Shown one piece after another: positions 27,415-42,583 of a DNA stretch of 64,000 bases. The stretch is from contig NZ_CP066167.1 in the NCBI RefSeq assembly GCF_016132545.1, positions 3,718,001 to 3,782,000 on the forward strand, written 5' to 3'. The notes beneath the pieces are model-generated. The model was given only the letters and a program-made list of their open reading frames with translations, had not been told where the DNA came from and made no database searches. How positions within the stretch are numbered: position 1 is the first letter of the stretch; each line of letters starts with the position of its first letter. Source of the stretch: Spongiibacter nanhainus (GTDB lineage Bacteria > Pseudomonadota > Gammaproteobacteria > Pseudomonadales > Spongiibacteraceae). Made by a program: the position numbers and the translations under genes.

Positions 27415-27655
27415 GGTGTGCTCCTGAAAACTGGCTACTGCGAAGAGGGGCGGTATTTTCCCTTACCCGGCGCGGAACAGCAAACCTTGAGGGCCCGAAA
27501 CTACCGTAAATATTGGGCTCCAGCGCACAATTGGGGCGAATGACGGCCATCCGGCGGTAAATTTGCCCTTATACGGAAAACCGCCTTGCAGGACGGCGGA
27601 GAGCCGGCGAGAATAAATCGCCTACCTATTTTGACCTCCGGATGGACCCTACGGC

Positions 27656-28093
27656 ATGTTCAACAACATTCTTTTTGTCTGTATTGGCAATATCTGCCGC
27701 AGTCCCAGCGCGGAATACCTGCTCAAGCACAAAACCGCTCACCGCCCGGGGCTAACCATCCACTCCGCCGGGCTCGGCGCATTGGTGGGCCAAGGGATCG
27801 ACGCCACTGCCGGTGAGCTGCTAACTGCCAATGGCATCGACGCCAGCGAGCATGTAGCCCGCAAGCTAACCCGCGACATGCTGGTGAATGCCGACCTGAT
27901 TCTCACCATGGAGCCCAGGCATATCAAAGGCATCAACGACCTGGCACCCCAAGTCAGTGGCAAAACCTTCCTGTTGGGCAAGTGGTCCAACAATCAGGAC
28001 GTGCCCGACCCCTATCGCAAGAGCCGGGAAGCCTTTGAGCACGTGTATCAATTGCTCGATCAATATACTGATGACTGGTTGAAGTATCTCTAG
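27656..28093 (+). CDS. Low-molecular-weight protein tyrosine phosphatase
   Basis: A 145-residue phosphatase. The P-loop CIGNICRS (Cys9, Arg15; C-x5-R) is at the N-terminus and the general acid Asp is in the DVPDPYRKS loop near residue 118. The length and sequence resemble Wzb/Etp, which dephosphorylate the tyrosine kinase Wzc in capsule export. No wza or wzc partner is nearby, so the substrate is open. It is divergent from tkt and convergent with the SDR gene. Confidence 0.9.
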   Translation: MFNNILFVCIGNICRSPSAEYLLKHKTAHRPGLTIHSAGLGALVGQGIDATAGELLTANGIDASEHVARKLTRDMLVNADLILTMEPRHIKGINDLAPQVSGKTFLLGKWSNNQDVPDPYRKSREAFEHVYQLLDQYTDDWLKYL

Positions 28094-28120
28094 CGACCAC
28101 CAGTAGCGATACCAGCGAGC

Positions 28121-28903
28121 CTAGAGGCAGCCCGACCAGCCGCCGTCGACAGGTAACACTGCTCCGGTGACGTATTTGCCCGCGGCCGAGCACAACAACA
28201 GAACAGCCCCTTCGATGTCACCTTGCTCCCCCATTCGACGCAGCGGTATCTCACCCACCACTTTGTCCATTACCTCGGGCCCGGTCTGCTCCATCATTTT
28301 GGTCAGAAACGCCCCCGGCACAATCGCGTTAACGTTAATGTGCTCGGCGGCAAGGTGACGGGCCAAGTGACGGGTCAGATGATGCAGCCCCGCCTTGCTG
28401 GCGCTGTAGGAGTAATTGCCCAGTAGGGGCGCGTGCAGCCCCTCCGACGAGCCAACATTGACGATTCTGGCCGGCATGCCGGCATCACCCGCCTTTTTAA
28501 TCAGCGGCAATAATGCTTGAACAAGAAAAAAAGGTGCCTTGAGATTAAGATCCATCACCCGGTCCCAACCTTTTTCCGGGAATTCCCCCAGCGCGTTGCC
28601 CCAGGTGGTGCCGGCATTGTTTACCAAGATATCGAGCTTTTGTTCCCGCCCCTGTAGCTCCGAAGCAAACTGTTCAATTTGACGCAAATCAGCCAAATCA
28701 TAAGGAAGGGAAACACAACGCCCCTGATAATCTCTGCCATTCATCTCATCGGCAAAACGATCACAATCCGCAGATTTTCTCGAGGTAACATATACCGTCG
28801 CACCCACCGACAGCAGAGCTTGAGACATCCACGCACCCAGGCCTTTGGCGCCACCGGTGACAACAGCGACCCTGCCCTGTAAACCAAACATTTCATTAAG
28901 CAT
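28121..28903 (-). CDS. SDR family oxidoreductase
   Basis: A 260-residue short-chain dehydrogenase. The NAD(P)-binding TGGAKGLG is near residue 16, NNAGTTWG near 93, and the catalytic YSASK near 163, preceded by the serine in IVNVGSSEG. The C-terminal PVDGGWSG is typical of classical SDRs. It resembles RhlG-like 3-oxoacyl reductases, but the substrate is unknown. Its start lies about 25 bp from the left flank of the IS5 element, so the original promoter may have been separated from it. Confidence 0.9.
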   Translation of the reverse strand: MLNEMFGLQGRVAVVTGGAKGLGAWMSQALLSVGATVYVTSRKSADCDRFADEMNGRDYQGRCVSLPYDLADLRQIEQFASELQGREQKLDILVNNAGTTWGNALGEFPEKGWDRVMDLNLKAPFFLVQALLPLIKKAGDAGMPARIVNVGSSEGLHAPLLGNYSYSASKAGLHHLTRHLARHLAAEHINVNAIVPGAFLTKMMEQTGPEVMDKVVGEIPLRRMGEQGDIEGAVLLLCSAAGKYVTGAVLPVDGGWSGCL

Positions 28904-28927
28904 TTCATCTCCTTTTTCGTTATTGAT

Positions 28928-28931
28928 TTAG
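28928..28931. repeat. Left TTAG target duplication of IS5 element
   Basis: TTAG, repeated at 30097-30100. It fits the YTAR target preference of IS5-group elements. Confidence 0.8.
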
Positions 28932-30096
28932 GGCATCTCTGATTTATTCACGATTTTTGCAATAATGCACAAATCCTCGTTATCACCGGAACGATATTCC
29001 CGATGAAGCAAAACTCTCTGACAGATGGCTTCGAGAAATTCCGCAAAAGGACGCGGAAGGAGCGCTTTCTCGATGATATGGAAAGCATTATTCCCTGGGC
29101 GGAACTTTGCGAAGCCATCGGTCCCTACTATCCGAATCCTCAGGGTGCTGGCCGACGTCCCATCGGGATTGAGCGGATGCTGCGAATTCATTTCCTCCAG
29201 CACTGGTTCAACCTGTCCGATCCGGCGGCCGAGGAAGCCTTGTATGATTCCCGCGCCATGCGCAACTTCGTCGGTATTGATCTCGGCGAGGAGCCTGTTC
29301 CCGACGAAACCACGATCTGCAAGTTTCGCCATTTGATGGAAAAACACAATCTCGGCGGTCACCTGTTTCATCTGGTCAATGAGTATCTCAATGAGAACGG
29401 GATAAAAATTACCCGCGGCACCATTGTCGATGCCTCGATCATTAATGCGCCCAGTTCCACCAAGAACAAGGAAGGAAAGCGCGATCCGGATATGCACCAA
29501 ACGAAGAAAGGGAATCAGTGGTATTTCGGGATGAAGGCGCATATCGGTGTCGATAGCAAAACCCGGTTGATTCATTCTGTGGTGGCGACTCCCGCCAATG
29601 TTCACGATTCGGTCGTGATTGGTGATTTGCTGCACGGAGAGGAAACGCGGGTATGGGGTGATTCGGCCTATACCGGGAAACGAGATGTTATTACCGATCA
29701 CGCGCCGGCCGCCAGGGATTTCACAAACCGAAAAGGCAGCCGGTATCGCAAACTGACCGATGAAGACCGAGCAAAGAACCGGACGAAATCCAGGGTTCGC
29801 GCCCGGGTCGAACATGCGTTCGGCGTCATGAAGCGGCAATTTGGCTTCACCAAAGTGCGATACAAAGGGCTGGAGAAAAACGCCCATCATCTTTTTGTAT
29901 CATGTGCATTGGTGAATCTGGTCATGGCTAAGAAGTCATTATTGAAACTGCAGCAGGCGTGACAGGATAGTTGCGCCTGAATTTGGGAATGCTGGCTAGA
30001 AACCGGCGAAGAAACGCCGTTTTCTGCCAAAAATAAGACAATATCTGACCTGATGTGTAATGGCATCGTGTTGTGCATCAATTATTCAGATGTTCC
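28932..30096 (+). mobile_element. IS5-family insertion sequence, about 1165 bp
   Basis: The ends are marked by imperfect inverted repeats (GGCATCTCTGATTTATTCAC on the left, GGAACATCTGAATAATTGAT on the right, reversed) and by TTAG target duplications. One intact transposase gene fills most of it. The element sits between the SDR gene and the AraC gene. Confidence 0.85.
29003..29962 (+). CDS. IS5 family transposase
   Basis: A 319-residue DDE transposase. The N-terminal DUF772-type region carries RRPIGIERMLRIHFLQHWFNLSDPAAEEALYDS. The catalytic residues are likely the Asp of GTIVDASIINAP, the Asp of RVWGDSAYTG, and the Glu of RVRARVEHAFGVMKRQFGF. The frame is intact and full length for the IS5 subgroup. 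The basic C-terminus ends with MAKKSLLKLQQA. No internal frameshift signal is needed. Confidence 0.95.
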   Translation: MKQNSLTDGFEKFRKRTRKERFLDDMESIIPWAELCEAIGPYYPNPQGAGRRPIGIERMLRIHFLQHWFNLSDPAAEEALYDSRAMRNFVGIDLGEEPVPDETTICKFRHLMEKHNLGGHLFHLVNEYLNENGIKITRGTIVDASIINAPSSTKNKEGKRDPDMHQTKKGNQWYFGMKAHIGVDSKTRLIHSVVATPANVHDSVVIGDLLHGEETRVWGDSAYTGKRDVITDHAPAARDFTNRKGSRYRKLTDEDRAKNRTKSRVRARVEHAFGVMKRQFGFTKVRYKGLEKNAHHLFVSCALVNLVMAKKSLLKLQQA

Positions 30097-30100
30097 TTAG
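30097..30100. repeat. Right TTAG target duplication of IS5 element
   Basis: TTAG, identical to 28928-28931. Confidence 0.8.
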
Positions 30101-30149
30101 CTTAAAATGTGATATGTTTTTTTAAATAAAATAATAAATAGGTGACGTC

Positions 30150-31124
30150 GTGTTTAATTCATGGTCTACCCAGGGAATTACTCAAAAAGAGAAATACCCG
30201 CTTATAAACGATGCGATCAATTCTGCCATCTGCCCTTGCCAAGTCAGCTCAGACATTCCCGGCGATCGCTTCAATGCCCAACTTGAGCGCGCGGTGTTTG
30301 GCGAGTCGTCGGTAATACGCTACTCCAGTCTCGGTGCGCAAAAAGCGATTCGTGGGCGGCAACACTTAAACAGCGAAGAGTCTGACTCGATCTTGCTGTA
30401 CCTGCCGATTACCGCGAAATTCACCATTCAACAAGACAAGGTCACCACCCAGGTCGACCCGGGCTCCGTTGCCCTTGTCCCGCTCTGTAAACCACTGATC
30501 GGGGTGTTTACCTCCAGCATCGAGATCGCTCAAACCGCAGTTCATATCAGAGTGCCAAGCGCCCCTTTGCGCGAGCTTCAACCACAAGTGGATCGTTTGT
30601 TTAATCAACGTCTCTCACTGAGTACCGGCAGCGGCAGAGTGTTCCAGTCTCTGGTTATGTCACTGATTGATGAAGCGGCGTATATCGAAGACAGCTGCAA
30701 GACAAATATGAGCAGCTTAATCATCGAGAGTATTGGTGCCATGTGTGGTGCAGAGATAGATCGCCGACAACAGGTCTCCAGCAAGGTCTTACCTAACCAC
30801 ACAGCCCAGCCTTATATTCTCGAGTTCATCAAAGCGCACTTAGGCAACCCCGATCTATCTCTGGACATGATCGCCAACCACTTTTCGTCTTCGCGGCGCT
30901 TTATCCACCGAGCGTTTGAGAATACCGGCTGGACAGTGTGGAGCTATATCAGAGAGCAACGTCTTTTAAATTGTCGTCGAGAACTTCAAAACCGCGAGCT
31001 AGACCATCTTTCAATTTCTCAAATTTGCTTTAGCTGGGGCTTCAAAGATGTGGCTCACTTCTCCCGGGTCTACAAAACTCGTTTTGGTCACGCGCCCACA
31101 AAGGAGCGCGCTTGCCAGGCATAA
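30150..31124 (+). CDS. AraC family transcriptional regulator
   Basis: A 324-residue regulator starting with GTG 30150 after AGGTGA. Residues ~40-200 form an AraC-binding-like sensor domain (SDSILLYLPITAKFTIQQ, DPGSVALVPLCKP). The C-terminal ~100 residues hold two helix-turn-helix motifs (LSLDMIANHFSSSRRFIHRAFENTGWTVWSYIREQRL and LSISQICFSWGFKDVAHFSRVYKTRFGHAPTK). This layout is shared with regulators of aromatic and terpenoid catabolism. It converges with the six-gene catabolic operon at 31140-38612 and is the obvious candidate activator. The target promoter would be near 38613-38750. The inducer is unknown. Confidence 0.9.
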   Translation: MFNSWSTQGITQKEKYPLINDAINSAICPCQVSSDIPGDRFNAQLERAVFGESSVIRYSSLGAQKAIRGRQHLNSEESDSILLYLPITAKFTIQQDKVTTQVDPGSVALVPLCKPLIGVFTSSIEIAQTAVHIRVPSAPLRELQPQVDRLFNQRLSLSTGSGRVFQSLVMSLIDEAAYIEDSCKTNMSSLIIESIGAMCGAEIDRRQQVSSKVLPNHTAQPYILEFIKAHLGNPDLSLDMIANHFSSSRRFIHRAFENTGWTVWSYIREQRLLNCRRELQNRELDHLSISQICFSWGFKDVAHFSRVYKTRFGHAPTKERACQA

Positions 31125-31139
31125 CACCGAGCAAATAGA

Positions 31140-31376
31140 TTAATCCGGCTCAATGATTCCGATCAGCTGACCCGCTGCCAGCACCTCACCTTCGCCGACT
31201 TTGTGTACAAGCGTGCCACTACTGCTTGCCTCCATTTCCATTTGCGCCTTCTCAACGCCAATATCGGCGATCACATCGCCGGCACGCACCGGCTGACCAT
31301 CGTCGACATGCCAGGCCGTTAACACACCCTCTTGCTCACCCGACCACCAATCCAGGGGGATTCTCAATTCGATCAT
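31140..31376 (-). CDS. Free-standing lipoyl-domain protein
   Basis: A 78-residue protein that is a single biotinyl/lipoyl domain and nothing else. MIELRIPLDWWSGEQEGVLTAWHVDDGQPVRAGDVIADIGVEKAQMEMEASSSG has the hallmark exposed Lys in DIGVEKAQ, and VGEGEVLAAGQLIGIIE completes the fold. In usual 2-oxoacid dehydrogenases this domain is joined to the E2 acyltransferase; here no peripheral-subunit-binding or catalytic domain follows. Its ATG overlaps the E1 beta stop (TAATG), so the two are translationally coupled. It probably acts as a mobile carrier for the acyl group produced by the E1 pair. Confidence 0.9.
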   Translation of the reverse strand: MIELRIPLDWWSGEQEGVLTAWHVDDGQPVRAGDVIADIGVEKAQMEMEASSSGTLVHKVGEGEVLAAGQLIGIIEPD

Positions 31377-32401
31377 TACGCGGCCTCCAGCATGGCGATG
31401 GCAGTGCCTACAATTTTCTCGGCACTTGGCCTGGCAAACTGCTCCATGGGTCTTGCAAACGGAATCGGAATATCTGGAAAGCAAATCCGCCGTGGCGACG
31501 ACCGCAATGCCGACAAATTCGACTCCGAGATACGCGCCAACACTTCTCCAGCCACACCGCAGTTCTTGTAGTCTTCGTCCACCACAATAAGCCGCCCGGT
31601 TTTCTCCAGAGAGGCCATGATGGTTTCCATATCCAGCGGCACCAAACTCCTTAGATCAATCACCTCCGCGCTTATGCCACTGTCACTCAAGCTCTCCGCA
31701 GCCTGCAAGGCATAGTGCAAGGTCACTCCCCAACCCACCAGGGTGATATCTGTTCCTTCGCGCTTTACCTGGGCTTTACCGATCGGTACGGTAAAGCGCT
31801 CATTGGGTACCGGTATAGAAGCCATTTTGACTGAGCCATACCAGCCCAGGCCCACCAACATTTTGTGAAACATGTATATGACCGGGTTGGGATCTTCAAT
31901 GGCGGCATGCATCAAGCCCCTGGCATCGTAGGCATTACTTGGCGCCACAACCTTCATTCCCGGCATATGACAAAATGTGGCATACAAGCTTTGTGAGTGC
32001 TGGGAGCCATCGCAATAGCCACCGCCGACACTGGTCATCAAGACCAATGGCACGGCTTGCCCACCGCCGCTGTGATAGGCATTCTTGGCTGCCATGTTGT
32101 AAAGCGGGTCCAAACACACGCCGATGAAGTCGTTAAACATCAACTCGACGACCGGTTTCATGCCACTCATTGCGGCACCTACGGCCGCTGACACGAACCC
32201 GGATTCCGAGATCGGGGTATCCCTCACTCGCTCCTCGCCAAACTGCTGATGAAGACCAGCCGTAGTCTGAAAAATCGACCCCAGCGCTCCGACATCCTCA
32301 CCCATAACGAAGACGTTTTCGTCGTTTTCCATTTCCCATTTGAGCGCCTCACTGACTGCCTTGTGAAAAGGCACCCGAGGGCCTTGAACTTGTCCCGACA
32401 T
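31376..32401 (-). CDS. 2-oxoacid dehydrogenase E1 component, beta subunit
   Basis: A 341-residue transketolase-like pyrimidine-binding subunit of the pyruvate/acetoin/branched-chain dehydrogenase family. It contains NVFVMGEDVGALGSIFQTTAGL, RVRDTPISESGFVSAAVGAAMSGMKPVVELMFNDF, SVGGGYCDGSQHSQSLYA and the C-terminal VIDLRSLVPLDMETI and RLIVVDEDYKNCGVAGE. It pairs with the E1 alpha gene 13 bp upstream to form a thiamine-diphosphate heterotetramer. The acceptor is probably the free lipoyl protein encoded next. The substrate 2-oxo acid or acyloin is not known. Confidence 0.92.
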   Translation of the reverse strand: MSGQVQGPRVPFHKAVSEALKWEMENDENVFVMGEDVGALGSIFQTTAGLHQQFGEERVRDTPISESGFVSAAVGAAMSGMKPVVELMFNDFIGVCLDPLYNMAAKNAYHSGGGQAVPLVLMTSVGGGYCDGSQHSQSLYATFCHMPGMKVVAPSNAYDARGLMHAAIEDPNPVIYMFHKMLVGLGWYGSVKMASIPVPNERFTVPIGKAQVKREGTDITLVGWGVTLHYALQAAESLSDSGISAEVIDLRSLVPLDMETIMASLEKTGRLIVVDEDYKNCGVAGEVLARISESNLSALRSSPRRICFPDIPIPFARPMEQFARPSAEKIVGTAIAMLEAA

Positions 32402-32414
32402 ACAACCCCCAAAT

Positions 32415-33410
32415 TTATGCTTCTACAAAAACGTGTCTGAGCGCATCGCTCGGCTTAGCGTCCGCCTGCTCCCGGGCATAACGCTCAACAGCGTCCACTT
32501 GCTCTTTGCAGGTTGCCAGTATCGATTCCAGATAATCCGCGGAGAACGTTCCCTCATCGACCAAGCGACGCGCCATAACGTTGATGGGATCGATATCCTC
32601 CCGGTCTCGTTTCTGGTCCTCCGGAACATAGGCCTCGCCATCGCCAACAAAGTGCCCCTCCAGCCGATATGTCTCAATCTCCAGAATTGTCGGGCCCAAG
32701 CCTTTGCGTGCTCGCTCAACGGCACGGCCGGCGGCCTCGAATACCGCCCAGACATCATTCCCGCTGACATATTCGCCATAGCATCCGTATGCAATGGCCC
32801 GATCCGAATTTTTGGATACCGACGTAGACTTGTCCTTGGCGACCGATACCCCCCAGCGATTGTCTTCAATCACGCAAATTAACGGCAATTTCCACAGTGC
32901 CGCCAAGTTCATCGCCTCATGAAAAACACCCTGGTTTGCGCCGCCCTCGCCGATACAGCCCACTGCAACGTCGCTGGTGCCCTTCATCTTTGACGCCAGA
33001 GCGTGGCCACCCGCAATACCCAGTGCCTGGCCAACAATGCCCGTAGAGGTAAACCGAACCTTCGGATCGGAGAGGTGCATATGACCTCCGCGCCCTCCCC
33101 CCAGCCCGGATTCCTTGCCAAGGATTTCCGCTGTCATCGCCGCCAAATCCACATTTTTGGCAATGGCCTGATGATGGGAGCGGTGGGAGGCCACCATCCA
33201 ATCGGCCGCGGATAAATGCACCGCCACGCCAACGGCGCAGGGTTCCTGCCCGGATGAAATATGCATTTCGCCTGGCAAAGGCCCGGCCGACATATCAAAG
33301 ACTGGAACCTTGCCCTCTAAGTAAACGCGCTTCATCATTTCCTCGTATTCGCGCGCCAACACCATCTTGCTATACATCCACTCGAGCTGATCTTTACTTG
33401 GACTTTCCAT
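32415..33410 (-). CDS. 2-oxoacid dehydrogenase E1 component, alpha subunit
   Basis: A 331-residue TPP-binding subunit. The TPP/magnesium motif is GCIGEGGANQGVFHEAMNLAALWKLPLICVIEDNRWGVSV, a close variant of the GDG...NN pattern with Glu and Asp-Asn-Arg substitutions. ASHRSHHQAIAK and GGRGGHMHLSDP fit AcoA/PdhA-type subunits. Its start codon lies 4 bp after the Rieske gene, with AGGGG before the ATG, so it belongs to the same transcript. The closest named families are acetoin dehydrogenase and branched-chain 2-oxoacid dehydrogenase; the real substrate is unknown. Confidence 0.92.
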   Translation of the reverse strand: MESPSKDQLEWMYSKMVLAREYEEMMKRVYLEGKVPVFDMSAGPLPGEMHISSGQEPCAVGVAVHLSAADWMVASHRSHHQAIAKNVDLAAMTAEILGKESGLGGGRGGHMHLSDPKVRFTSTGIVGQALGIAGGHALASKMKGTSDVAVGCIGEGGANQGVFHEAMNLAALWKLPLICVIEDNRWGVSVAKDKSTSVSKNSDRAIAYGCYGEYVSGNDVWAVFEAAGRAVERARKGLGPTILEIETYRLEGHFVGDGEAYVPEDQKRDREDIDPINVMARRLVDEGTFSADYLESILATCKEQVDAVERYAREQADAKPSDALRHVFVEA

Positions 33411-33414
33411 ACCC

Positions 33415-34782
33415 CTATTTACCCCGCATATATCGATCGTATTCTTCGTAAAAGGCCTGCATACGCATCTCCTGATGGGAAAGCCGCTGCCCCTTGAAGC
33501 CCCTGGACTTCATTCCTTTTTGAACGCGCGGGACAAACTCAGCATCCTGATCCAGAACCTGACTTAAACTCGCCTCACCGTGTTTAAGCTTGATCCGCGG
33601 GGGCCGGGGAACCTCGCCGGATAAATCGATGTCCGGCGCACCCATATACCTGGGCATCCGATAGTTGGGATCGTCAACCCGGTGAGCCAGCACGGATACG
33701 TGGTAGTAACATTTTTCAGGATCACTTTCGTTGGGGAAGAAGCGCATCACCAAAACCCCTTCGGCGTGGGCGTTGAAGGTCATATTGGGGAACACAAAAT
33801 AGTTCCAGTCATCGGTGAGCTGACTATCGGAGTATCCCGAAAAATCAAGGCCCACTTCCTTTGCCCACTCCCGCTTTCGCTGTTGAAGTGCGGGGCGAAT
33901 CAGCCCAGCCTTACCCTCATAGGATTCTGGTGACAATCCCACTTCGCTAAGCATGGCCCGCAACTCATCGTTCAATGCATGCTGATCTTTTAGGCGTTTG
34001 CTTTTTACCGGCACAGGCAAAATCATTCTGGAGTGGCCGTTATCAAAAAAATCATGCTGTAAGTGATAGTCTTCGATCCAGCCCAGCCCTTCAGGGTGTC
34101 GACGATGAATATGGTAGCCTTCCATAAACGCATCCAAGGCCGTCTTCCAGTTCACATTCCACTCGACACACACATCACTGATCAGCACCATATCTTCCAT
34201 GCGATAAGCAGAGAGTTGTTCAGGGAGAGGAGTAAGGTAGGAATGCAACGGCGGAGGATTAGGATCCAGCGAAATAAAGATAAATCCTGACCACATATCC
34301 AGCGCAACAGGCTGCAAACCCGGCCTGTCGCAAATCATCTCGCTGGCGAAGGTCTCCTCATCGGCGATGCGGTGGAGCTCGCCAGTATTCATCCAGGTCC
34401 AGCTGTGAAAACCGCAGACAAATTTGCTGGCATTGCCTGCATCATCCACCACCAGTTGAGCACCTCGGTGCTGGCACACATTGTAAAATGCCCGGATCAC
34501 ACCATCGGTACTTTTGACGACTATGATGCTCTCGTAGCCGATATCAAATTTAAACCAGTCGCCCACGTCCTGGACATCGGACTCCCGGCCAGCGCACAGC
34601 CAGGTTTTGGCAAAGATCTTTTCGTCTTCCTGGGTGGCTATGTCTTTCGACCAGTATTTATCCATCCCGACAAGCATTTTTGGTACTGGCGCGGCCCGCT
34701 CACCTTTTTTGGTTGGGTCAACGGCCTGGGCGTCTGTGTCAATAATCGTCGCCGGGCCCTTGGCCAAATAGCTTTTCGACAT
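33415..34782 (-). CDS. Rieske non-heme iron oxygenase, alpha subunit
   Basis: A 455-residue ring-hydroxylating-type oxygenase. The Rieske 2Fe-2S ligands are Cys103, His105, Cys123 and His126 (CQH...CGFH, C-x-H-x17-C-x2-H). The catalytic iron motif is EGYHIHRRH, with His224 and His229. Glu221 sits at the position that bridges the two metal centres and is Asp in naphthalene dioxygenase but Glu in carnitine oxygenase CntA. The catalytic domain extends to about residue 380 and there is a longer C-terminal tail. No small subunit, ferredoxin or reductase is encoded nearby, so it probably works as a homotrimer with a shared reductase. AGGAG precedes ATG 34782. The substrate is unknown. Confidence 0.92.
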   Translation of the reverse strand: MSKSYLAKGPATIIDTDAQAVDPTKKGERAAPVPKMLVGMDKYWSKDIATQEDEKIFAKTWLCAGRESDVQDVGDWFKFDIGYESIIVVKSTDGVIRAFYNVCQHRGAQLVVDDAGNASKFVCGFHSWTWMNTGELHRIADEETFASEMICDRPGLQPVALDMWSGFIFISLDPNPPPLHSYLTPLPEQLSAYRMEDMVLISDVCVEWNVNWKTALDAFMEGYHIHRRHPEGLGWIEDYHLQHDFFDNGHSRMILPVPVKSKRLKDQHALNDELRAMLSEVGLSPESYEGKAGLIRPALQQRKREWAKEVGLDFSGYSDSQLTDDWNYFVFPNMTFNAHAEGVLVMRFFPNESDPEKCYYHVSVLAHRVDDPNYRMPRYMGAPDIDLSGEVPRPPRIKLKHGEASLSQVLDQDAEFVPRVQKGMKSRGFKGQRLSHQEMRMQAFYEEYDRYMRGK

Positions 34783-34791
34783 ACCTAACTC

Positions 34792-37095
34792 CTAGAACTC
34801 AATATCGATTCGTCCGACGATTTGACGAGGTGGCGCATAGGTCCCACTCACGCCAAAGTCGTGAAGCAGCGCATTTTTTAAGTATTCAGTACTGGTGAGG
34901 TTTGAACCGATAAGCGACAGTTTGATATTGGAGGGAATCAGCTCGTAGGAAATATGGCCGCCTAAAACCGTGAATGGCTCCTGCTCAAAGGTATTCTGCG
35001 CATCAAAATACCAACCACTGGCGTGATAGATAGAGACACCAGCTTCTAATCGATCATCGCCAAAATAAAAGTGAGTGGTCACATCACCTGAGACAGTCAA
35101 AGAGGGCGCTCGATTTAGTTCATTGCCGGAGAAATCGCCTGTAAACGCCAAGCCGGTAGTTTGGTCGTAGCCGGTACCCACATACTCTTTGTACTCGGAC
35201 TCCATCCAGCTGGCGCCGAGATTAAATCGCAGCTGTTCAATAGGCGCGAAGGCCAACTGCGCTTCTGCGCCATATACTTGTGCATTGCCCGCATTCTCCA
35301 GCCTGGCGGTACCGGAATTCACCAGCGACACGATTTGTACTTGCAGGTCATCGTAGTTATAGAAAAAGCCAGCGAAGTTAAACCGCAGACTTCGGTCGAA
35401 GAACTCGCCCTTAAGGCCTATTTCATAGGCTTTAATAAACTCAGGCTCAACGGGAGTGACAGGCTCCAGGATAAGAACCGGATTGTAGTTACCCGACTTA
35501 AAGCCCTCGGAGTACTTGAAGTAATACAGCGTATCCCGGGGCCGCCACTCCACCGACGCCATAGGCGTCCAGGCATCCCAGGTCTTGTCCTGAGGGGGCG
35601 ATGACAGAAGGGTCGGAGATACAGACTCCAGGCTCAGCAGCCTGACCTCAGTTCGGGATTCAGTGACAAAACGGGTCTCGCTGGAATAGCGAAGTCCGGC
35701 GCTAAGCGAAAAGGTATCCGTTAGCTGCCAGGATAAGTTGGTAAAAACAGCGGAGGCTTCGGTCTCGATAATGCCAAAGGTTCGCAAGGTTGCCGCATCA
35801 GGAAAGCCATCACCGATTATTCCGCCCAGTAATTCGCCAATCGCGGTACCGTCAATGAGATCAACCAGGGTCGCATCGAAGACGGCGGTCGGTCCCAAGG
35901 ATATTTCCAGAGGATCAAAGCCACCCTCCGACTCAAGATAGAACGCACCAACCAGGTAGTGAAGGCTGTCGTTCCACAGATCGCCGCTGAGCTGCAACTC
36001 TTGCGACCAAGTATAGGTAAACGCTTTTGGAACCGGCACTTCTTCAAGGTCAGCTTCGGTATAATCCAGCTCGATAAACCCTGAATTATCGGTGTCTAGC
36101 ATTGCTGTTATCGACTTGAACTCAAATGAGTCCGCGATGTAGTTGAGTTTCAGGTCCACCCCTGTGGTGCGAAATTCATTGAAGTACGGCCCGCGGTCAG
36201 CATTGGTCTTGTAAGGTTTATTGGAGGTTTCCACCCGGCCGCCTGCCGCCTCCGTCAGCAACGACGTCCTGAAACTATTCCCTACTGTGGTATCGGCACC
36301 GTAATGTTCTGTCAGATAGCCCGTCAGCTGTGCCGATAACTTGTCGCTAATATCAAGCAAAATCTTAACGCGGCCACCGTAATCTTCATTATCGACAACA
36401 GGTGGAGCGGCTGGGTTAATCGATGTGTAGTACGATTCGCTTTCGTCGTAATAGGCGGATACTGAGGCACTTAACGCATCACCGAGGGGACCGGATACGT
36501 ACATGTCCACTCCCCGTCGCTCATAACTTCCGCCCAGCAAAGCCATCGAGGCCTCAAATTCTTGTGCCGGCTTTTTGGTGGTGATATTTATCGCACCACC
36601 AGTAGTATTGCGGCCAAATAACGTGCCTTGCGGACCCTTTAGCACCTCGACACGCTGGACATCGGCAAAGTGTTGGATAGACGAGTTGGCATTGGGGTTG
36701 TACACGCCATCAAGAAATGTGGCTATCGAACCTTCAGAGGTGGGGATCGTGCCATCCGAACCGATGCCCCTGATATAAATATGCGCATAGCCACCCTGGC
36801 TGTTGTATACCATGCCCGGCGTTTTTAGCTGCAAACCGTGACTTTCGGATATATTGGCACTGACCAGATCGTCACCCGAGAAGACAGATACCGTTACCGG
36901 CACATCCTGCAGGCTCTGCTCTCTCCTCTGCACCGTTACAATGACTTCTTCTATGTACCCTTTGTTTCTTTTTACGCTTTGGGTACTGGCAACATCATCC
37001 TGTTTTTCATCACTTGTGACCGCTGGCGACTGCGCCACCACAAAGCCGTGGTAGAACAGCATCAATATCGGTATCAGGCATAGTCTCTTAAACAT
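34792..37095 (-). CDS. TonB-dependent outer-membrane receptor
   Basis: A 767-residue receptor. The signal peptide MFKRLCLIPILMLFYHGFVVAQ is followed by a TonB-box-like segment EEVIVTVQRREQSLQDVPVTVSVF, the plug domain (IYIRGIGSDGT, EVLKGPQGTLFGRNTTGGAINITTKKP) and a 22-strand-type barrel ending in IVGRIDIEF with a terminal Phe. The EEVIVTVQRREQSLQDVPVTV start is typical of sphingomonad-type receptors for organic compounds rather than siderophores. ATG 37095 overlaps the stop of the CoA ligase gene (TAATG). It probably imports the substrate of the operon. Confidence 0.93.
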   Translation of the reverse strand: MFKRLCLIPILMLFYHGFVVAQSPAVTSDEKQDDVASTQSVKRNKGYIEEVIVTVQRREQSLQDVPVTVSVFSGDDLVSANISESHGLQLKTPGMVYNSQGGYAHIYIRGIGSDGTIPTSEGSIATFLDGVYNPNANSSIQHFADVQRVEVLKGPQGTLFGRNTTGGAINITTKKPAQEFEASMALLGGSYERRGVDMYVSGPLGDALSASVSAYYDESESYYTSINPAAPPVVDNEDYGGRVKILLDISDKLSAQLTGYLTEHYGADTTVGNSFRTSLLTEAAGGRVETSNKPYKTNADRGPYFNEFRTTGVDLKLNYIADSFEFKSITAMLDTDNSGFIELDYTEADLEEVPVPKAFTYTWSQELQLSGDLWNDSLHYLVGAFYLESEGGFDPLEISLGPTAVFDATLVDLIDGTAIGELLGGIIGDGFPDAATLRTFGIIETEASAVFTNLSWQLTDTFSLSAGLRYSSETRFVTESRTEVRLLSLESVSPTLLSSPPQDKTWDAWTPMASVEWRPRDTLYYFKYSEGFKSGNYNPVLILEPVTPVEPEFIKAYEIGLKGEFFDRSLRFNFAGFFYNYDDLQVQIVSLVNSGTARLENAGNAQVYGAEAQLAFAPIEQLRFNLGASWMESEYKEYVGTGYDQTTGLAFTGDFSGNELNRAPSLTVSGDVTTHFYFGDDRLEAGVSIYHASGWYFDAQNTFEQEPFTVLGGHISYELIPSNIKLSLIGSNLTSTEYLKNALLHDFGVSGTYAPPRQIVGRIDIEF

Positions 37096-38612
37096 TATCG
37101 CACCCATTTTCTTATTTCAGTTTTAGCGATTTTTCCTGCCGCGGTCTTTGGCAACGGTTCGCTGGCAATAACAACTTTTTTAGGGCATTTATAATTGGCG
37201 ATCTTGGTGGCACAGAACTCTTTTATTGTAGGCTCATCAATAGTACAGCCAGCCTCGGGGTAAATAACCGCACAAACGCTTTCGCCCCATCGACTATCCG
37301 GCACACCGACAACTGCACACTCTTGAACGCCGGGATATTGATATACCGCCTGCTCAACCTCGGTGGAATAGACATTTTCACCACCAGAGATGATCATATC
37401 TTTAATTCGGTCCACCAAGTAAAGATATCCATGCTCGTCGCAGTAACCGGCATCTCCGGTATGCATATAGCCATGGCGTATCGCCGCTGCGGTGGCATCA
37501 GGGTTGTTCCAGTAACCCTGCATCACCGACGGACCAGCGACGGTCACCTCTCCCACCTCACCGCGGGGAACTTCATCCCCTTGATCATCCACGATCCGTA
37601 AGTCGGCCAGCTGGATGGGAACTCCCGCCGACCTCAGCCTCGATGGGAAGGCGCAGGCTTCTTGATGATCCTCCGGCGGGAGCACCGTGGCTACGGGAGA
37701 CAATTCCGTCATACCATAAAATTGCGTAAATTCGACCCCAGGCAAGCGATCCATGGCCAAGCGGAGCAGAGATTCCGGCATAGGCGACGACCCATAGACG
37801 ATACGACGCAGACTACTCAAGTCATAGCTGGAGAACGACGGATCATAAAGCAGCATCTCGATCATGGTGGGCACTAACAGAATGTGAGTCACACTATGCT
37901 GCTGTATTGCCTGTGCCACCACAGAGGGTACAAATGCCGGCAAGATAACCGAACTCGCCCCCGCCAGAAGGGTGGCGTAAATGATGCCACCCGCCGCCAT
38001 ATGAAAAAATGGCGCCACGTGCAGAACCACCGCTGAATGATCCAGGCCGGAGTGAGCCTGCACCTGAAGGCCTGTGGTCAACAAGCCCACCGAATTCAGC
38101 ATGACCCCCTTGGACCGCCCAGTGGTACCCCCTGTATAGAACAGAGCCACTGTTTCGTCGTCACTGCGTCCGGAATCACTCAATGGCGACAGGCCCGACA
38201 TAGCCGACAGGCAGCTTTCATGCTCGATATTCACCACTTGCCGAATGACCTCTGACCTAGCCAGCAGAGCCTGACCTGTAGCGTCGAAATGCTGGTCCAC
38301 AAGCAATATTATGGCGCCGCTATCATCCAGCGCGGTGAGCATTTCTTCTTCTGACCAGCGAGTGTTGATAGACACCATAATCACATCGGCCCAGGGGGCG
38401 GCCATGTAAAACTGAAAGAACGACTCGCTGTTTTGCGACAGGATCGCGACCCGATCACCTTTACTCACCCCGAAGTCCCGCAAAAATTGCGCAAACTTCG
38501 CCACCCCCGCTTCCAATTCCTTCCAGGTCAGCGCGCCCTCTTCCCGCAACAAGGCCGGGGATGAAGGCCAGAGCTTTGCCGCGCGGCGCAGTGGTTGGGT
38601 GATTGCAAACAT
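37095..38612 (-). CDS. Acyl-CoA synthetase (AMP-binding)
   Basis: A 505-residue ANL-superfamily ligase. The ATP motif FYTGGTTGRSKGVM is near residue 160, the adenylate region FYGMTELSPVAT near 300, YMHTGDAGYCDEHGYLYLVDRIKDMIISGGENVYSTEVE near 390, and the catalytic lysine in LPKTAAGKIAKTEIRK at the C-terminus. The start is ATG 38612, with AAAGGA 10 bases upstream. It is the first gene of the operon. It activates a carboxylic acid with ATP and CoA; whether fatty, aromatic or terpenoid cannot be told. Confidence 0.92.
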   Translation of the reverse strand: MFAITQPLRRAAKLWPSSPALLREEGALTWKELEAGVAKFAQFLRDFGVSKGDRVAILSQNSESFFQFYMAAPWADVIMVSINTRWSEEEMLTALDDSGAIILLVDQHFDATGQALLARSEVIRQVVNIEHESCLSAMSGLSPLSDSGRSDDETVALFYTGGTTGRSKGVMLNSVGLLTTGLQVQAHSGLDHSAVVLHVAPFFHMAAGGIIYATLLAGASSVILPAFVPSVVAQAIQQHSVTHILLVPTMIEMLLYDPSFSSYDLSSLRRIVYGSSPMPESLLRLAMDRLPGVEFTQFYGMTELSPVATVLPPEDHQEACAFPSRLRSAGVPIQLADLRIVDDQGDEVPRGEVGEVTVAGPSVMQGYWNNPDATAAAIRHGYMHTGDAGYCDEHGYLYLVDRIKDMIISGGENVYSTEVEQAVYQYPGVQECAVVGVPDSRWGESVCAVIYPEAGCTIDEPTIKEFCATKIANYKCPKKVVIASEPLPKTAAGKIAKTEIRKWVR

Positions 38613-38749
38613 TCGAATCTGTTCCTTTGCACAGTTAAACCATGGAACGAGATTATGGCCAACCCACCTGGCTGCGACCATGCACGGGAGTGACTGGCGG
38701 CTTGTCGATTTGTGACGGCACGTAGTGACGGCGCACCCGAATCCGCCCC

Positions 38750-38777
38750 ATCTATATCAAAATATTTTGATATAGAT
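38750..38777. promoter_or_regulatory. Perfect 28-bp palindrome, putative SahR operator
   Basis: The half-site ATCTATATCAAAAT is followed directly by its exact reverse complement ATTTTGATATAGAT, centred at 38763/38764. It ends 25 bp before the ArsR-methyltransferase start and overlaps a likely -35 element. Confidence 0.85.
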
Positions 38778-38794
38778 AAAAATCTTGCTACACT
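38767..38794 (+). promoter_or_regulatory. Candidate sigma-70 promoter of the SAM-cycle operon
   Basis: TTGATA (38767-38772), a 16-base spacer and TACACT (38789-38794) resemble -35 and -10 boxes. The -35 lies inside the palindrome. The predicted start would be within about 3 bases of the ATG at 38803. Confidence 0.45.
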
Positions 38795-38802
38795 GCCGGG
38801 CA

Positions 38803-39786
38803 ATGAGTGAACTGCCGAATACCGTCAGCGCAATTGCGCCCCTGGAAGATACCCTGCTGCAACTGTGCAAAGCGGGCGGGGATGCACTTCGCCTGCAGGT
38901 ATTGCGGGTGCTAAGCCGGGACGCCTATACCGTCCAGGAGCTGTGCCACATCCTCGACAGTCGGCAGTCGGGGCTGAGTCACCATTTGAAGATATTGCTC
39001 AGCGCGGGGCTGGTCACCAAGCGCCGGGAAGGCAACAGCCTGTTTTATCGGCGCACCTACCGGGCGAGTCATCCACAGCTTTTTGCACTGCAACAGCAGT
39101 TATTGAGCAGCGTCGATCAGCTGGAGCTGAGCCCGGGTTTGGAGGCACGGCTGGACCAGGTAATCGACGAGCGTTCAGCTCGCTCCCAGGCCTTTTTTGC
39201 CCAATACGCCGGGCAATTTCAGGCCCAGCAGGAGCAGATGGTGGCCTTTGAGGTATACGGCCAAAGTACCGCGGAGCTGCTGGCTAACAGTCAGCCCCAG
39301 GGCGGCGATCTGGCGGTGGAAGTGGGGCCCGGCGATGGCGCTTTTCTGCCAGAGTTGGCCAGGCGCTATCAGCGCGTTGTCGCCATCGACAACAGCGCCG
39401 CGATGCTGGACAAGGCCAAAGAGACGGTCAGTCAGCAGGGACTGGACAATGTGCACTGCCAACTGGACAGCACTGACATTGCCCCGGCCAGCGCCGACTG
39501 TGTCGTGGCCAATATGGTTTTGCACCATGTTCCCTCGCCGGTGGATATTTTTCGGGAAGTGGCAACTTGGCTGAAACCCGGCGGGTTGTTGTGCGTGACG
39601 GAATTGTGCCGCCACGACCAAAACTGGGCCCGAGAGGCCTGCGGCGACTTGTGGCTGGGTTTTGAGCCCGACGACCTGAGCGAGTGGGCGGCGGCGAGTG
39701 GCTTTAGCGATGGCCCCGGGGTCTACTTAGCCCAGCTCAATGGCTTTCGAGTACAAGTTCGACAATTTATTAATACAGCGGCCTAA
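38803..39786 (+). CDS. sahR: ArsR-family regulator fused to SAM-methyltransferase domain (SahR type)
   Basis: A 327-residue two-domain protein. Residues ~15-95 form an ArsR/SmtB winged helix (ALRLQVLRVLSRDAYTVQELCHILDSRQSGLSHHLKILLSAGLVTKRREGNSLFYRR) without the usual metal-binding cysteines. Residues ~150-300 form a class I methyltransferase fold with motif I AVEVGPGDGAFLPEL and VVANMVLHHVPSP. This architecture and its place just before metK match the SahR group, repressors of methionine/SAM-cycle genes that respond to S-adenosylhomocysteine; the fused domain probably senses SAH rather than methylating. A perfect 28-bp palindrome lies upstream. The gene precedes metK by 27 bp. The ribosome site is weak. 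Confidence 0.82.
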   Translation: MSELPNTVSAIAPLEDTLLQLCKAGGDALRLQVLRVLSRDAYTVQELCHILDSRQSGLSHHLKILLSAGLVTKRREGNSLFYRRTYRASHPQLFALQQQLLSSVDQLELSPGLEARLDQVIDERSARSQAFFAQYAGQFQAQQEQMVAFEVYGQSTAELLANSQPQGGDLAVEVGPGDGAFLPELARRYQRVVAIDNSAAMLDKAKETVSQQGLDNVHCQLDSTDIAPASADCVVANMVLHHVPSPVDIFREVATWLKPGGLLCVTELCRHDQNWAREACGDLWLGFEPDDLSEWAAASGFSDGPGVYLAQLNGFRVQVRQFINTAA

Positions 39787-39813
39787 GGGCCTTTTATTTA
39801 AGAGGACGACAGA

Positions 39814-41022
39814 ATGTCTGACTACAGTTTATTTACTTCGGAGTCGGTGTCCGAGGGCCACCCCGACAAAATGGCCGACCAGATTTCCGATGCCGTGTTG
39901 GACGCCATCATTGCCCGGGACAAATACGCCCGGGTGGCGGTGGAGTCATTGGTTAAGACCGGGATGGCCATCGTCGCCGGCGAGCTGACCACCTCCTGTT
40001 ATGTCGATCTGGAAGACATCATCCGCGACGTGATCACCGGCATTGGCTACGATAGCTCTGACGTCGGCTTCGACGGGGCCAGTTGTGCGGTATTGAACGC
40101 GATTGGCAAACAGTCGGTGGATATTAATCAAGGCGTCGATCGGGCCAAGCCCGAGGACCAAGGCGCCGGCGACCAGGGCCTGATGTTTGGCTACGCCACC
40201 AACGAAACCGAATCGCTGATGCCCGCGCCGCTGTTCTACTCCCACCGCTTGGTGGAGCGCCAAGCCAAACTGCGCAAAGAGGGCGTACTGCCCTGGCTGC
40301 GACCGGACGCCAAAAGCCAGGTGACCCTGCGTTACGACGGCGGCAAACCGGTCGCCATTGATGCGGTGGTCCTGTCCACTCAGCACGACCCCGATATCAG
40401 TCAAAGTAACCTGCAGGAAGCGGTACTGGAAGAAATCATCCGCCCGGTACTGCCCGCCGAGTGGCTCCATGCTGACACCCGCTTCCATATCAACCCCACC
40501 GGCAAGTTTGTGATCGGTGGACCGGTCGGCGACTGCGGCCTGACCGGGCGTAAGATCATCGTTGACACCTATGGCGGCATGGCCCGTCACGGCGGTGGCG
40601 CTTTCTCCGGCAAGGACCCCTCCAAGGTGGATCGCAGCGCCGCTTATGCAGGCCGTTACGTCGCTAAAAACATTGTCGCCGCTGGGCTTGCCGACCGCTG
40701 TGAAATCCAGGTGAGCTACGCCATTGGCGTGGCAGAGCCCACCTCGGTCTCCATCAATACCTTTGGTACCGGCAAAGTCAGCGAGGAAAAACTGGCCGCC
40801 GCCGTGCGTGAAGTCTTCGACTTGCGCCCCTACGGCATCACCAAAATGCTCGACCTGCTGCACCCGGTTTACCAGCCCACAGCAGCCTACGGTCACTTCG
40901 GGCGCGAGCCTTACGAATATACCTATAACTTCACCGAAAACGGTGAACAACGCAGCGAAACAGCGATTGCCTTTAGCTGGGAAAAGACCGACAAGGCCGA
41001 AGCACTGAAAGCCGCCGTATAA
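39814..41022 (+). CDS. metK: S-adenosylmethionine synthetase
   Basis: A 402-residue enzyme making SAM from methionine and ATP. Diagnostic blocks are [67 protein letters not shown] and [25 protein letters not shown] lies before the ATG. It follows the SahR-type regulator and precedes ahcY, so the operon covers SAM synthesis and SAH removal. Confidence 0.97.
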
Positions 41023-41052
41023 ACGAACACATTTAATTTGAGGTCACGACTT

Positions 41053-42447
41053 ATGAGTACTGTAAGCGCAATAGACACTACCTTCACCGACTACAAAGTT
41101 GCCGATATCAGCCTGGCCGACTGGGGCCGCCGCGAGATCGACATCGCCGAAACTGAAATGCCGGCACTGATGGCCCTGCGGGAAAAATACAAAGCCGATC
41201 AGCCTCTCAAGGGCGCCAAGATCATGGGCTGTATTCACATGACCATCCAGACCGCGGTATTGATTGAAACTCTGATCGAGCTGGGCGCCGAAGTGCGCTG
41301 GTCATCCTGTAATATTTTCTCCACCCAGGACCACGCCGCCGCTGCCATCGCCGCCGCCGGTATTCCTGTGTTTGCCTGGAAAGGTGAGACCGAGGAAGAG
41401 TTCTGGTGGTGCATCGAGCAAACCGTACTGCAAGACGGAAAAGAGTGGGACGCCAATATGATTCTGGACGATGGTGGCGACCTGACTCTGCTGATGCACG
41501 ACAAGTACCCCCATATGCTGGACAACATTCACGGCATTTCCGAAGAGACCACCACCGGCGTTCACCGCCTGCTGGAAATGATGGAAGCAGGCACACTGAA
41601 AGTGCCCGCCATCAACGTCAACGATGCGGTGACCAAGTCCAAGAACGATAACAAGTACGGCTGCCGCCACAGCCTGAACGACGCCATCAAGCGCGGCACA
41701 GACCACCTGTTATCCGGCAAGAAAGCGCTGGTCATCGGCTACGGCGATGTGGGTAAAGGCTCTGCGGCCAGCCTGCGTCAGGAAGGTATGATCGTAAAGA
41801 TCACTGAGATTGACCCCATCTGTGCCATGCAGGCCTGTATGGATGGTTTTGAGGTTGTATCGCCTTACAAAGACGGTATCAATGACGGTTCTGAAGCCTC
41901 AATCGACAAAGCGCTGTTACAGAACACCGACCTGGTGGTCACCACCACCGGCAACGTGGATGTCTGTGACGCCAATATGCTGAAGAACCTGAAAAACGGC
42001 TGTGTGGTCTGCAACATCGGTCACTTCGACAGCGAAATCGACACGGCCTATATGCGTAAAAACTGGGAGTGGCAGGAAGTGAAGCCCCAGGTCCACAAAG
42101 TGGTACGCGATGCGGCCAGCAACGATCACTTGATCCTTCTCTCTGAGGGTCGCCTGGTAAACCTGGGCAATGCCACAGGTCACCCCTCGCGCATTATGGA
42201 TGGCTCCTTCGCCAACCAGGTACTGGCACAAATCTACCTGTGGGAGCGTAAGTTTGCCGATCTTCCCGAGGCGGAAAAGGCTTCCAACCTCTACGTTAAA
42301 GTCCTGCCTAAAAAGCTGGACGAGGAAGTGGCCGCGGAGATGGTGCGGGGCTTTGGCGGCGTCATTACCCGGATGACCGACGAGCAGGCCAAGTACATCA
42401 ATGTGCCGGTGGAAGGCCCCTACAAGCCCGAAGCCTACAAATACTAA
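41053..42447 (+). CDS. ahcY: Adenosylhomocysteinase
   Basis: A 464-residue NAD-dependent hydrolase splitting S-adenosylhomocysteine into homocysteine and adenosine. ATG 41053 is preceded by GAGG 10 bases upstream; an in-frame non-ATG start at 41038 is less likely. Clear motifs are [53 protein letters not shown]-like [16 protein letters not shown], the NAD-binding [12 protein letters not shown], and the C-terminal [11 protein letters not shown]. It follows metK by 30 bp. Confidence 0.97.
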
Positions 42448-42464
42448 TCAGGCACAGGCAGAAC

Positions 42465-42488
42465 GGACCCGGCGCTGGCGCCGGGTCC
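42465..42488. terminator. Perfect 24-bp GC-rich inverted repeat between ahcY and metF
   Basis: GGACCCGGCGC pairs fully with GCGCCGGGTCC around a 2-base centre, 17 bp after the ahcY stop. There is no T-run, so it may be a pause, attenuator or RNA-processing hairpin rather than a full terminator. Confidence 0.5.
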
Positions 42489-42583
42489 AAACAATCGATG
42501 CGATACTTCAACGAGGTGCGACGCGTCCTCGGCAAGCGGGTATCACTCGGCTATAGAACAAGTAAACACGCTCAAGGCCTAAG

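Follow-up and report, generated by a model that had tools for sequence, protein, structure and literature searches.

A Rieske Oxygenase Encoded with an E1 Alpha/Beta Pair and a Free Lipoyl Protein in Spongiibacter nanhainus: A Possible Route of Acyloin Cleavage

The genome of Spongiibacter nanhainus consists of one contig of 4,078,570 bases (NZ_CP066167.1), of which a stretch of 64,000 nucleotides (positions 3,718,001 to 3,782,000, here called the window and numbered from its first letter) was analysed. At positions 31,140 to 38,612, it contains an operon of six genes, in which the alpha subunit of a Rieske oxygenase is encoded together with a thiamine diphosphate (ThDP)-dependent E1 alpha/beta pair and a free lipoyl protein of 78 amino acids. 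The best explanation is an acquired catabolic operon in which the oxygenase would produce an alpha-hydroxyketone (or a 2-oxoacid would arise), which would then be cleaved by the E1 pair onto the lipoyl protein. This explanation is held tentatively, as one that comes close to being probable. Complexes depending on ThDP and lipoyl groups are textbook components of central metabolism. In the present case, one member of a recognisable E1 subfamily has been recruited next to a Rieske oxygenase. The subfamily has a free lipoyl carrier and often also a lipoylation enzyme encoded in the same locus; further Rieske oxygenases are accompanied by E1 of other lineages. An earlier, sequence-only reading of the window had called the combination unfamiliar, and no described case of a Rieske oxygenase with an E1 pair and a lipoyl protein stood out in the open-licence full-text literature, a scope which leaves most subscription journals outside.

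Gene Content and Layout of the Operon

The open reading frames and their translations place six co-directional genes on the minus strand, and the family of every one of them was confirmed by Pfam, for the lipoyl protein in a search of its own. The first gene (37095..38612) codes for an AMP-forming acyl-CoA synthetase of 505 amino acids, counted from 38612 (Pfam AMP-binding, 1.9e-79, and AMP-binding_C), which passed the cut-off of the NCBIfam PRK06187 long-chain acyl-CoA ligase subfamily (489 vs 476). The start at 38612 is plausible, with AAAGGAAC upstream, the mechanical start of the reading frame being 38681. The second gene (34792..37107, with the start at 37107 or, following the TAATG coupling, at 37095) codes for a TonB-dependent receptor (Pfam beta-barrel, 5.3e-36, and Plug, 8.9e-14), for which none of the 25 NCBIfam models listed reached its cut-off. 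Then follow the genes for the oxygenase (33415..34782), E1 alpha (32415..33410), E1 beta (31376..32401) and the lipoyl protein (31140..31376).

TAATG couplings were read in the sequence at the junctions of the synthetase with the receptor and of E1 beta with the lipoyl gene, and the other gaps are 9 bp between receptor and oxygenase, 4 bp between oxygenase and E1 alpha and 13 bp between E1 alpha and E1 beta. A gene for an AraC-family protein, a candidate regulator (30150..31124, plus strand; Pfam HTH_18 and AraC_binding_2), converges on the operon and ends 15 bp from the stop of the lipoyl gene. Gene set, order, tight junctions and the converging regulator are therefore all as the sequence-only reading had described them. 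Its proposal of a single transcription unit is supported by the gene layout, and the functions it had assigned to the set, namely uptake, oxygenation, C-C cleavage by E1 and lipoyl protein, and CoA activation, are supported by the gene content. Matches to promoter and terminator consensus sequences were not clearly more frequent than in shuffled sequence (9 vs 7.2; 7 vs 9.7).

The Rieske Oxygenase

The oxygenase has 455 amino acids and carries the marks of a Rieske non-heme iron oxygenase alpha subunit: PF00355 and PF00848 (Rieske and Ring_hydroxyl_A) are over the Pfam cut-off, and the motifs C-x-H, C-x2-H and H-x4-H are present together with a C-terminal aspartate. The corresponding residues C103, H105, C123, H126, H224, H229 and D413 are invariant in 30 aligned oxygenase rows. 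We take the first two motifs to hold the Rieske ligands, and the H-x4-H motif and the aspartate to lie at the mononuclear iron.

The AlphaFold model is confident (pLDDT 88.9) and shows the fold of Rieske oxygenases. Among solved structures, CntA comes closest in both sequence and fold (fold match E 4.7e-23), but at only 19-21% identity it does not tell the substrate. Five NCBIfam models were matched at E <= 0.001, with the cut-offs of the GbcA, HcaE, benzoate- and anthranilate-type models remaining far out of reach (best, GbcA, 133 bits against 670) and no KshA model among the matches. The alpha-only Rieske oxygenase fold is shared with the monooxygenases GbcA, CntA and KshA, while the low identity to CntA and the GbcA score give no sign of the same substrate. 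The bulky terpenoid or steroid-like compound suggested by the sequence-only reading has to be regarded as a guess, since the oxygenase passes no NCBIfam equivalog cut-off; similarities of the receptor, the ligase or the oxygenase pointed to no substrate. There is no reductase gene in the operon, and reductase-like proteins are encoded elsewhere in the genome. According to a passage in PMC6153880, KshA works with a separate reductase, KshB, which is common to several oxygenases, and a shared reductase of this kind would fit the operon.

The E1 Pair and Its Clade

E1 alpha (331 amino acids; Pfam E1_dh, 1.8e-63) and E1 beta (341 amino acids; Transket_pyr and Transketolase_C) both belong to the E1 superfamily. 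The sequences ISE, QHSQ and EGHFVGD are present, presumably providing the activating glutamate and the catalytic histidine in E1 beta, where ISE and QHSQ are kept, and the histidine of the GH motif in E1 alpha.

A tree was calculated from 30 concatenated E1 alpha/beta pairs and later, after addition of five loci, from 35. The window was placed in a clade of 12 rows in the first tree and in the same clade, then of 17 rows, in the second (100/100 in both), with locus L020 from a Hyphomonadaceae metagenome-assembled genome (MAG) as its sister (100/100) and with the acetoin-type and pyruvate dehydrogenase rows outside. In the alignment, a 10-residue insertion in E1 alpha and a 9-residue insertion in E1 beta are present in all 17 rows of the clade, the window included, and in none of the 18 others. 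The clade has members among proteobacteria, in Rhodococcus and in haloarchaea. One internal TGA was reported for the E1 alpha match in genome G745 (L154), yet the piece translated from L159 is without a stop.

Pyruvate dehydrogenase proper was ruled out by the NCBIfam scores and the tree: the models of its E1 alpha are the closest to the window protein, which reached 264 of 394 bits for TIGR03182 and 207 of 411 bits for TIGR03181. Acetoin dehydrogenase (AcoAB) proper was ruled out by the tree, in which the window stands in its separate 100/100 clade and the reference loci L142 and L143, only two in number, stand elsewhere. Acetoin dehydrogenase cleaves an alpha-hydroxyketone and passes the C2 unit to the lipoyl arm, as described in PMC12247030. 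The AcoABC system resembles that of the window in the size of its E1 alpha and beta (L142, L143), in lipoyl-linked acyl transfer and in that a sigma-54 regulator lies beside the acetoin operons. However, the window pair differs in its clade, in the two insertions, in the free lipoyl protein, in the lack of an E2 and in having a Rieske oxygenase as a partner.

The closest relatives in organisation are split operons of the order E1 alpha, E1 beta, lipoyl protein and separate E2 catalytic domain (E2cat), found in Gemmobacter, Phaeobacter, Paracoccus, Sphingomonas paeninsulae, Rhodococcus opacus and on haloarchaeal plasmids, and annotated by domain only. With E1 alpha as query, 15 plasmid records were found at E <= 1e-70, and the seven of them that were opened all contain these four genes in a row. 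The split operons share with the window the E1 clade, its insertions and the position of the lipoyl gene directly after E1 beta. In S. paeninsulae (L014), moreover, a TonB-dependent receptor gene directly precedes E1 alpha, and a Rieske oxygenase gene lies about 4 kb past the E2 gene. They differ from the window, which has the oxygenase, the receptor and the synthetase and no E2cat, in the E2cat gene after the lipoyl gene (7/7 opened loci) and in their varied neighbours (ABC or TRAP transport, GMC oxidoreductase). The haloarchaeal plasmid loci L133 and L134 have the same split operon and the same E1 insertions as the bacterial members. On a Thermus plasmid (L146), outside the clade, an acoA-like E1 alpha gene is followed by E1 beta, by a gene for an 82-residue protein with a lipoyl-like match and by TRAP transport genes.

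The Free Lipoyl Protein and Its Partners

The lipoyl protein (Pfam Biotin_lipoyl, 1.1e-10) carries its lysine in the sequence VEKAQ. This lysine is kept in 14/14 aligned free lipoyl proteins encoded beside E1 genes, the window included, and biotin as the modification was rejected because the lysine in this context aligns with that of the 13 others. The free lipoyl protein, which had at first appeared to be a peculiarity of the operon, is instead present in all 12 rows of the E1 clade that were checked, and also in three of the 18 rows outside (L112, L114, L146). Because it was found throughout the checked rows, it is, as far as these alignments reach, a trait of the E1 clade and normal there. 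A lipoyl domain attached to no other protein is reported to be encoded in a 2-oxoacid dehydrogenase operon of Haloferax; if this is the case, the free lipoyl protein itself has been published before.

The 16 clade loci besides the window contain a lipoate-ligase-like gene in 11 cases and an E2cat gene in 10. The ligase was confirmed by Pfam in five loci (L014, L015, L020, L131, L135), and in R. opacus lipA is found in place of a lipoate ligase. Within the stretches examined (12-20 kb), no E2cat was found at the other six (L011, L148, L149, L156, L157, L159), E1 of L148 lying at a contig end. Four of these loci (L149, L156, L157, L159) show operons of E1 alpha, E1 beta, lipoyl protein and lipoate ligase which, if the lack of E2cat is real, would represent an acyltransferase-free lipoyl system.

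The S. nanhainus genome codes for four proteins with an E2 catalytic domain (PF00198), two of which are stand-alone and encoded at 1.386 and 1.990 Mb, far from the window. In the alignment they show HRxIN-G with the histidine kept, and an inactive acyltransferase is not claimed as proof of an E2-free reaction. The genome further codes for one dihydrolipoamide dehydrogenase (E3) over the family cut-off, beside an E2 gene, and for one protein of the LplA/LipB family.

A single-domain lipoyl carrier outside the classical E2 is also represented by LbpA, which PMC6067878 describes as the lipoate-binding protein of Hdr-like sulfur oxidation, with a dedicated LplA. The ligase gene near relatives of the window module is a further likeness; LbpA differs in serving sulfur oxidation and not an E1 pair, and the window operon is without a ligase.

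Pairing of Rieske Oxygenases with E1 across Genomes

A Rieske alignment was searched against one genome per species, and the best 80 matches represented 79 distinct loci. Among these, the best match was L020 (51% identity), the next rows having at most 46%. The order oxygenase, E1 alpha, E1 beta, lipoyl protein is kept in L020 with overlapping frames (identities of 51%, 60%, 57% and 42%, respectively). An acyl-CoA synthetase gene precedes the oxygenase gene there, and a TonB-dependent receptor, an E2cat, a lipoate ligase and an AraC-like gene are present in the same locus. The four-gene core thus recurs in L020, while its receptor, synthetase and AraC protein share no more than 24-26% identity with those of the window (receptor and synthetase 26%, AraC 24%). 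From these values, the three outer genes appear to have been exchanged or recruited separately, and the conserved unit is taken to be the four-gene core.

An E1 alpha gene was found in 11 of the 79 loci obtained with the best 80 matches, accompanied by E1 beta in 10. About 0.3 E1 alpha genes would be expected in the 1.29 Mb covered, a rough guide in which taxa and catabolic context are not matched. It is based on 42 heterotetramer-type or fused E1 alpha genes among the listed matches in 56 genomes of the same order (about 202 Mb). The association of Rieske oxygenases with E1 is more than chance.

The oxygenase tree of 113 rows places the nine rows with an E1 neighbour in three groups: the window with L020 (99, with a long-branch warning considered below), a clade of L026, L043, L051, L058, L077 and L089, and L112 of the S. 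nanhainus genome itself. Six changes of the label for an E1 neighbour are needed on this tree; because several of the rows labelled 'other' come from loci cut by contig ends, three groups are stated here and no precise count of gains. The E1 tree likewise divides the loci with an oxygenase neighbour into three groups. L026, L043, L058, L077 (cut by its contig stretch) and L089 have a fused lipoyl-E2 and group with the acetoin-type rows; L051 was left out since its E1 beta is cut off. Given three groups of oxygenases and three of E1, the trees suggest that the pairing was most likely assembled more than once. Genes for short-chain dehydrogenases/reductases (SDR) lie upstream of the oxygenase and E1 in L026, L043, L051 and L058. 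For L022 and L021, whose oxygenases come next in the tree, no E1 was found within the 13.4 and 4.8 kb examined. MAG contigs from Chloroflexota/Dehalococcoidia (L093, L096) also contain E1 alpha, E1 beta, E2 and Rieske genes together.

Further E1 Modules of the S. nanhainus Genome

Besides the operon of the window, the S. nanhainus genome contains three more modules of E1 alpha, E1 beta and a free lipoyl protein. The first (L011) is accompanied by a Cupin_7 gene, AraC and TetR genes and a cytochrome P450 gene, and the second (L112) by genes for a P450, a Rieske oxygenase, an aldehyde dehydrogenase and an AraC protein. The third (L114) is encoded with an E2cat and acyl-CoA dehydrogenases, downstream of a stretch (L113) coding for two TonB-dependent receptors, a Rieske oxygenase, a Rieske ferredoxin, an OYE-type reductase, a P450 and an FAD_binding_2 oxidoreductase. 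The oxygenase of L113 lies about 11 kb from E1 of L114, and none of the FAD_binding_2, lipid-transfer thiolase, OYE and P450 genes of L113 was over an NCBIfam cut-off. L112 and L114 belong to a different E1 group than the window. Six E1_dh matches were found in the genome, namely the four modules and two proteins which resemble by size SucA and a dxs-type enzyme.

All four modules lie in stretches with an oxygenase gene, which is a Rieske oxygenase in the window, a P450 in L011 and both types in L112 and in L113/L114. This four-for-four neighbourhood is the strongest hint within the organism that oxygenase and E1 chemistry belong together.

Acquisition of the Operon

The operon is part of an 11.4-kb insert (27415..38784) between tkt and the genes for an ArsR-methyltransferase and metK. 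In all four genomes of the same genus with both sides in the fetched stretch (L138, L139, L140, L141), 0.7-1.5 kb separate tkt from the ArsR-methyltransferase gene. The two other fetched regions of the genus (L136, L137) showed one side only. Because no tkt was found there within about 12 kb beyond the ArsR-methyltransferase gene, the junction may be an integration hot spot. A P450-like match was seen within this distance in L137.

The insert also contains a gene for an IS5-family transposase (29003..29962, plus strand; Pfam DDE_Tnp_1, 2.7e-34), the DNA of which is similar to annotated IS5 transposases on plasmids, and one for an SDR-family oxidoreductase (28121..28903, minus strand; Pfam adh_short_C2, 2.2e-48), a candidate member of the pathway only. 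The G+C content is 51-56% for the insert genes and 59.5-62% for the adjoining tkt, ArsR-methyltransferase and metK genes, which is weak support for an insertion because the farther-out ahcY (55%) and metF (57%) overlap the range of the insert.

E1 alpha at E <= 1e-60 was matched in only one of 96 genomes, that of S. nanhainus itself (two copies), and in none of 17 genomes of the same genus. Including the own genome, matches were obtained in three of 369 genomes of the class at E <= 1e-100 and in six of 398 of the phylum at E <= 1e-85. For the oxygenase, a search of 21 genomes of the family at E <= 1e-60 gave the own genome and two matches in one other, at 34-37% identity. The absence of the operon from this site in relatives is best explained by horizontal acquisition of a catabolic operon.

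Proposed Reaction Sequence and Its Alternatives

In the proposed sequence, the substrate would enter via the TonB-dependent receptor, and the oxygenase, served by a reductase encoded at another place in the genome, would introduce a hydroxyl group at an aliphatic carbon adjacent to a carbonyl, so that an alpha-hydroxyketone (acyloin) would result. The E1 pair with ThDP would then split the C-C bond between carbonyl and carbinol, releasing an aldehyde or ketone and loading the acyl part onto the lipoyl protein. From there, the acyl group might be passed to CoA by an acyltransferase encoded elsewhere, such as the two stand-alone E2 proteins, or be freed as the acid and activated by the acyl-CoA synthetase of the operon, and the lipoyl arm would be re-oxidised by the single dihydrolipoamide dehydrogenase.

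An alpha-hydroxyketone as the product of the oxygenase fits the succession of oxygenation, E1 cleavage and CoA activation. Genes for sigma-54 activators were found beside the clade operons L015, L156 and L157, the latter two being near-copies (71%) which count as one. DhaR is the best NCBIfam model for the activators of L015 and L156, well below its cut-off, and over the aligned parts the L156 protein shares 27-33% identity with the activator of the acetoin-type locus L143, also in the sensor half, and 22% with its L142 counterpart. Such activators beside sister modules would fit alpha-hydroxyketone substrates. GMC oxidoreductases, encoded near four clade operons (L015, L131, L155, L158), fit an oxidation of alcohol to ketone.

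Several findings weigh against this sequence of reactions. The core order was found in only one other genome, that of L020, and in the oxygenase tree the join of this locus with the window drew a treekit warning as it unites two long branches, yet 51% is the highest identity of the scan. Among the 15 clade loci obtained by searches other than that with the oxygenase, only four showed an oxygenase gene in the stretch examined (Rieske oxygenases in L014 and L132, P450 in L011 and L149). An E2 and a lipoate ligase are lacking in the window, and the E1 clade lies outside the rows representing acetoin dehydrogenase. Both stand-alone E2 proteins, which read HxxxNG and not HxxxDG, form a pair (100/99). 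This pair joins the E2cat of R. opacus and the SucB-like E2 of S. nanhainus in a weak fork (75/82) and stands apart from the E2cat of L014, L015, L020, L131 and L135. The E1 clade could also act on 2-oxoacids; no reaction of any member was found in the open-licence literature.

The last point leads to a different route, in which the pathway makes a 2-oxoacid, for example after ring cleavage, which E1 and the lipoyl protein would decarboxylate oxidatively to the acyl group, the oxygenase being used elsewhere in the pathway, for instance in ring hydroxylation or O-demethylation. 2-Oxoacids are the substrates of most E1 alpha/beta pairs that have been characterised, and the closest NCBIfam models, though below cut-off, are those of the pyruvate dehydrogenase E1 alpha. 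The five characterised lipoate-dependent complexes include three for 2-oxoacids and acetoin dehydrogenase, according to PMC6067878. However, this route gives no reason for the presence of different Rieske groups beside different E1 groups; the activators beside sister modules weakly resemble those of the acetoin and dihydroxyacetone type; and Pfam showed no ring-cleaving dioxygenase or 2-oxoacid-making aldolase in the operon. We regard it as rather unlikely, if a serious contender.

A second alternative would dispense with E2 altogether: the acyl-lipoyl group would be hydrolysed to the free acid and re-activated by the acyl-CoA synthetase, E1 and the lipoyl protein being a complete two-part oxidising lyase. 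The lack of E2cat in the operon and in the stretches examined at the six clade loci named above, four of which keep a lipoate ligase, speaks for it, as does the synthetase as the first gene. Since those stretches are short, with E1 of L148 at a contig end, E2cat may be encoded elsewhere, like the two stand-alone copies of the genome; moreover, L020 has an E2cat in its locus and the operon has no thioesterase gene, and this variant is considered quite improbable. That the genes were merely gathered on a mobile island without a shared pathway, their layout being a by-product of insertion, would agree with the IS5 transposase and with the generic receptor and synthetase (only 26% identical to those of L020), but is made very improbable by the TAATG couplings and gaps of 4-13 bp, by the core order kept in L020 and by the sister position of both loci in the oxygenase tree (99, with the long-branch warning) and in the E1 tree (100/100).

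The formation of an alpha-hydroxyketone by the oxygenase and its cleavage by E1 is therefore preferred here. If true, it would add a route of C-C cleavage in the degradation of recalcitrant alicyclic compounds, and it would explain annotations as 'PDH-like' or 'acetoin dehydrogenase-like' beside oxygenases, including those in Chloroflexota MAGs, Woeseiaceae and sphingomonads. A wider generalisation, which we consider doubtful, is that Rieske-coupled lipoyl lyases represent a general strategy, so far undescribed, by which alicyclic or branched carbon skeletons could be opened with no need for a Baeyer-Villiger step. The oxygenase would place the hydroxyl group beside a ketone, and the E1 pair would cleave the acyloin onto a discrete lipoyl carrier, in some lineages, perhaps that of the window, without an acyltransferase, and the system would have been assembled independently about three times and moved horizontally.

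Genes Beyond the Insert

Next to the insert, positions 38785-43411 of the window code for a fusion of an ArsR-type regulator with a methyltransferase; its gene and the subsequent metK, ahcY and metF form an S-adenosylmethionine cycle operon. The ArsR-methyltransferase and metK were matched in all ten genomes searched, the own included, and all four genes of the cycle were found together in 6/6 fetched relatives.

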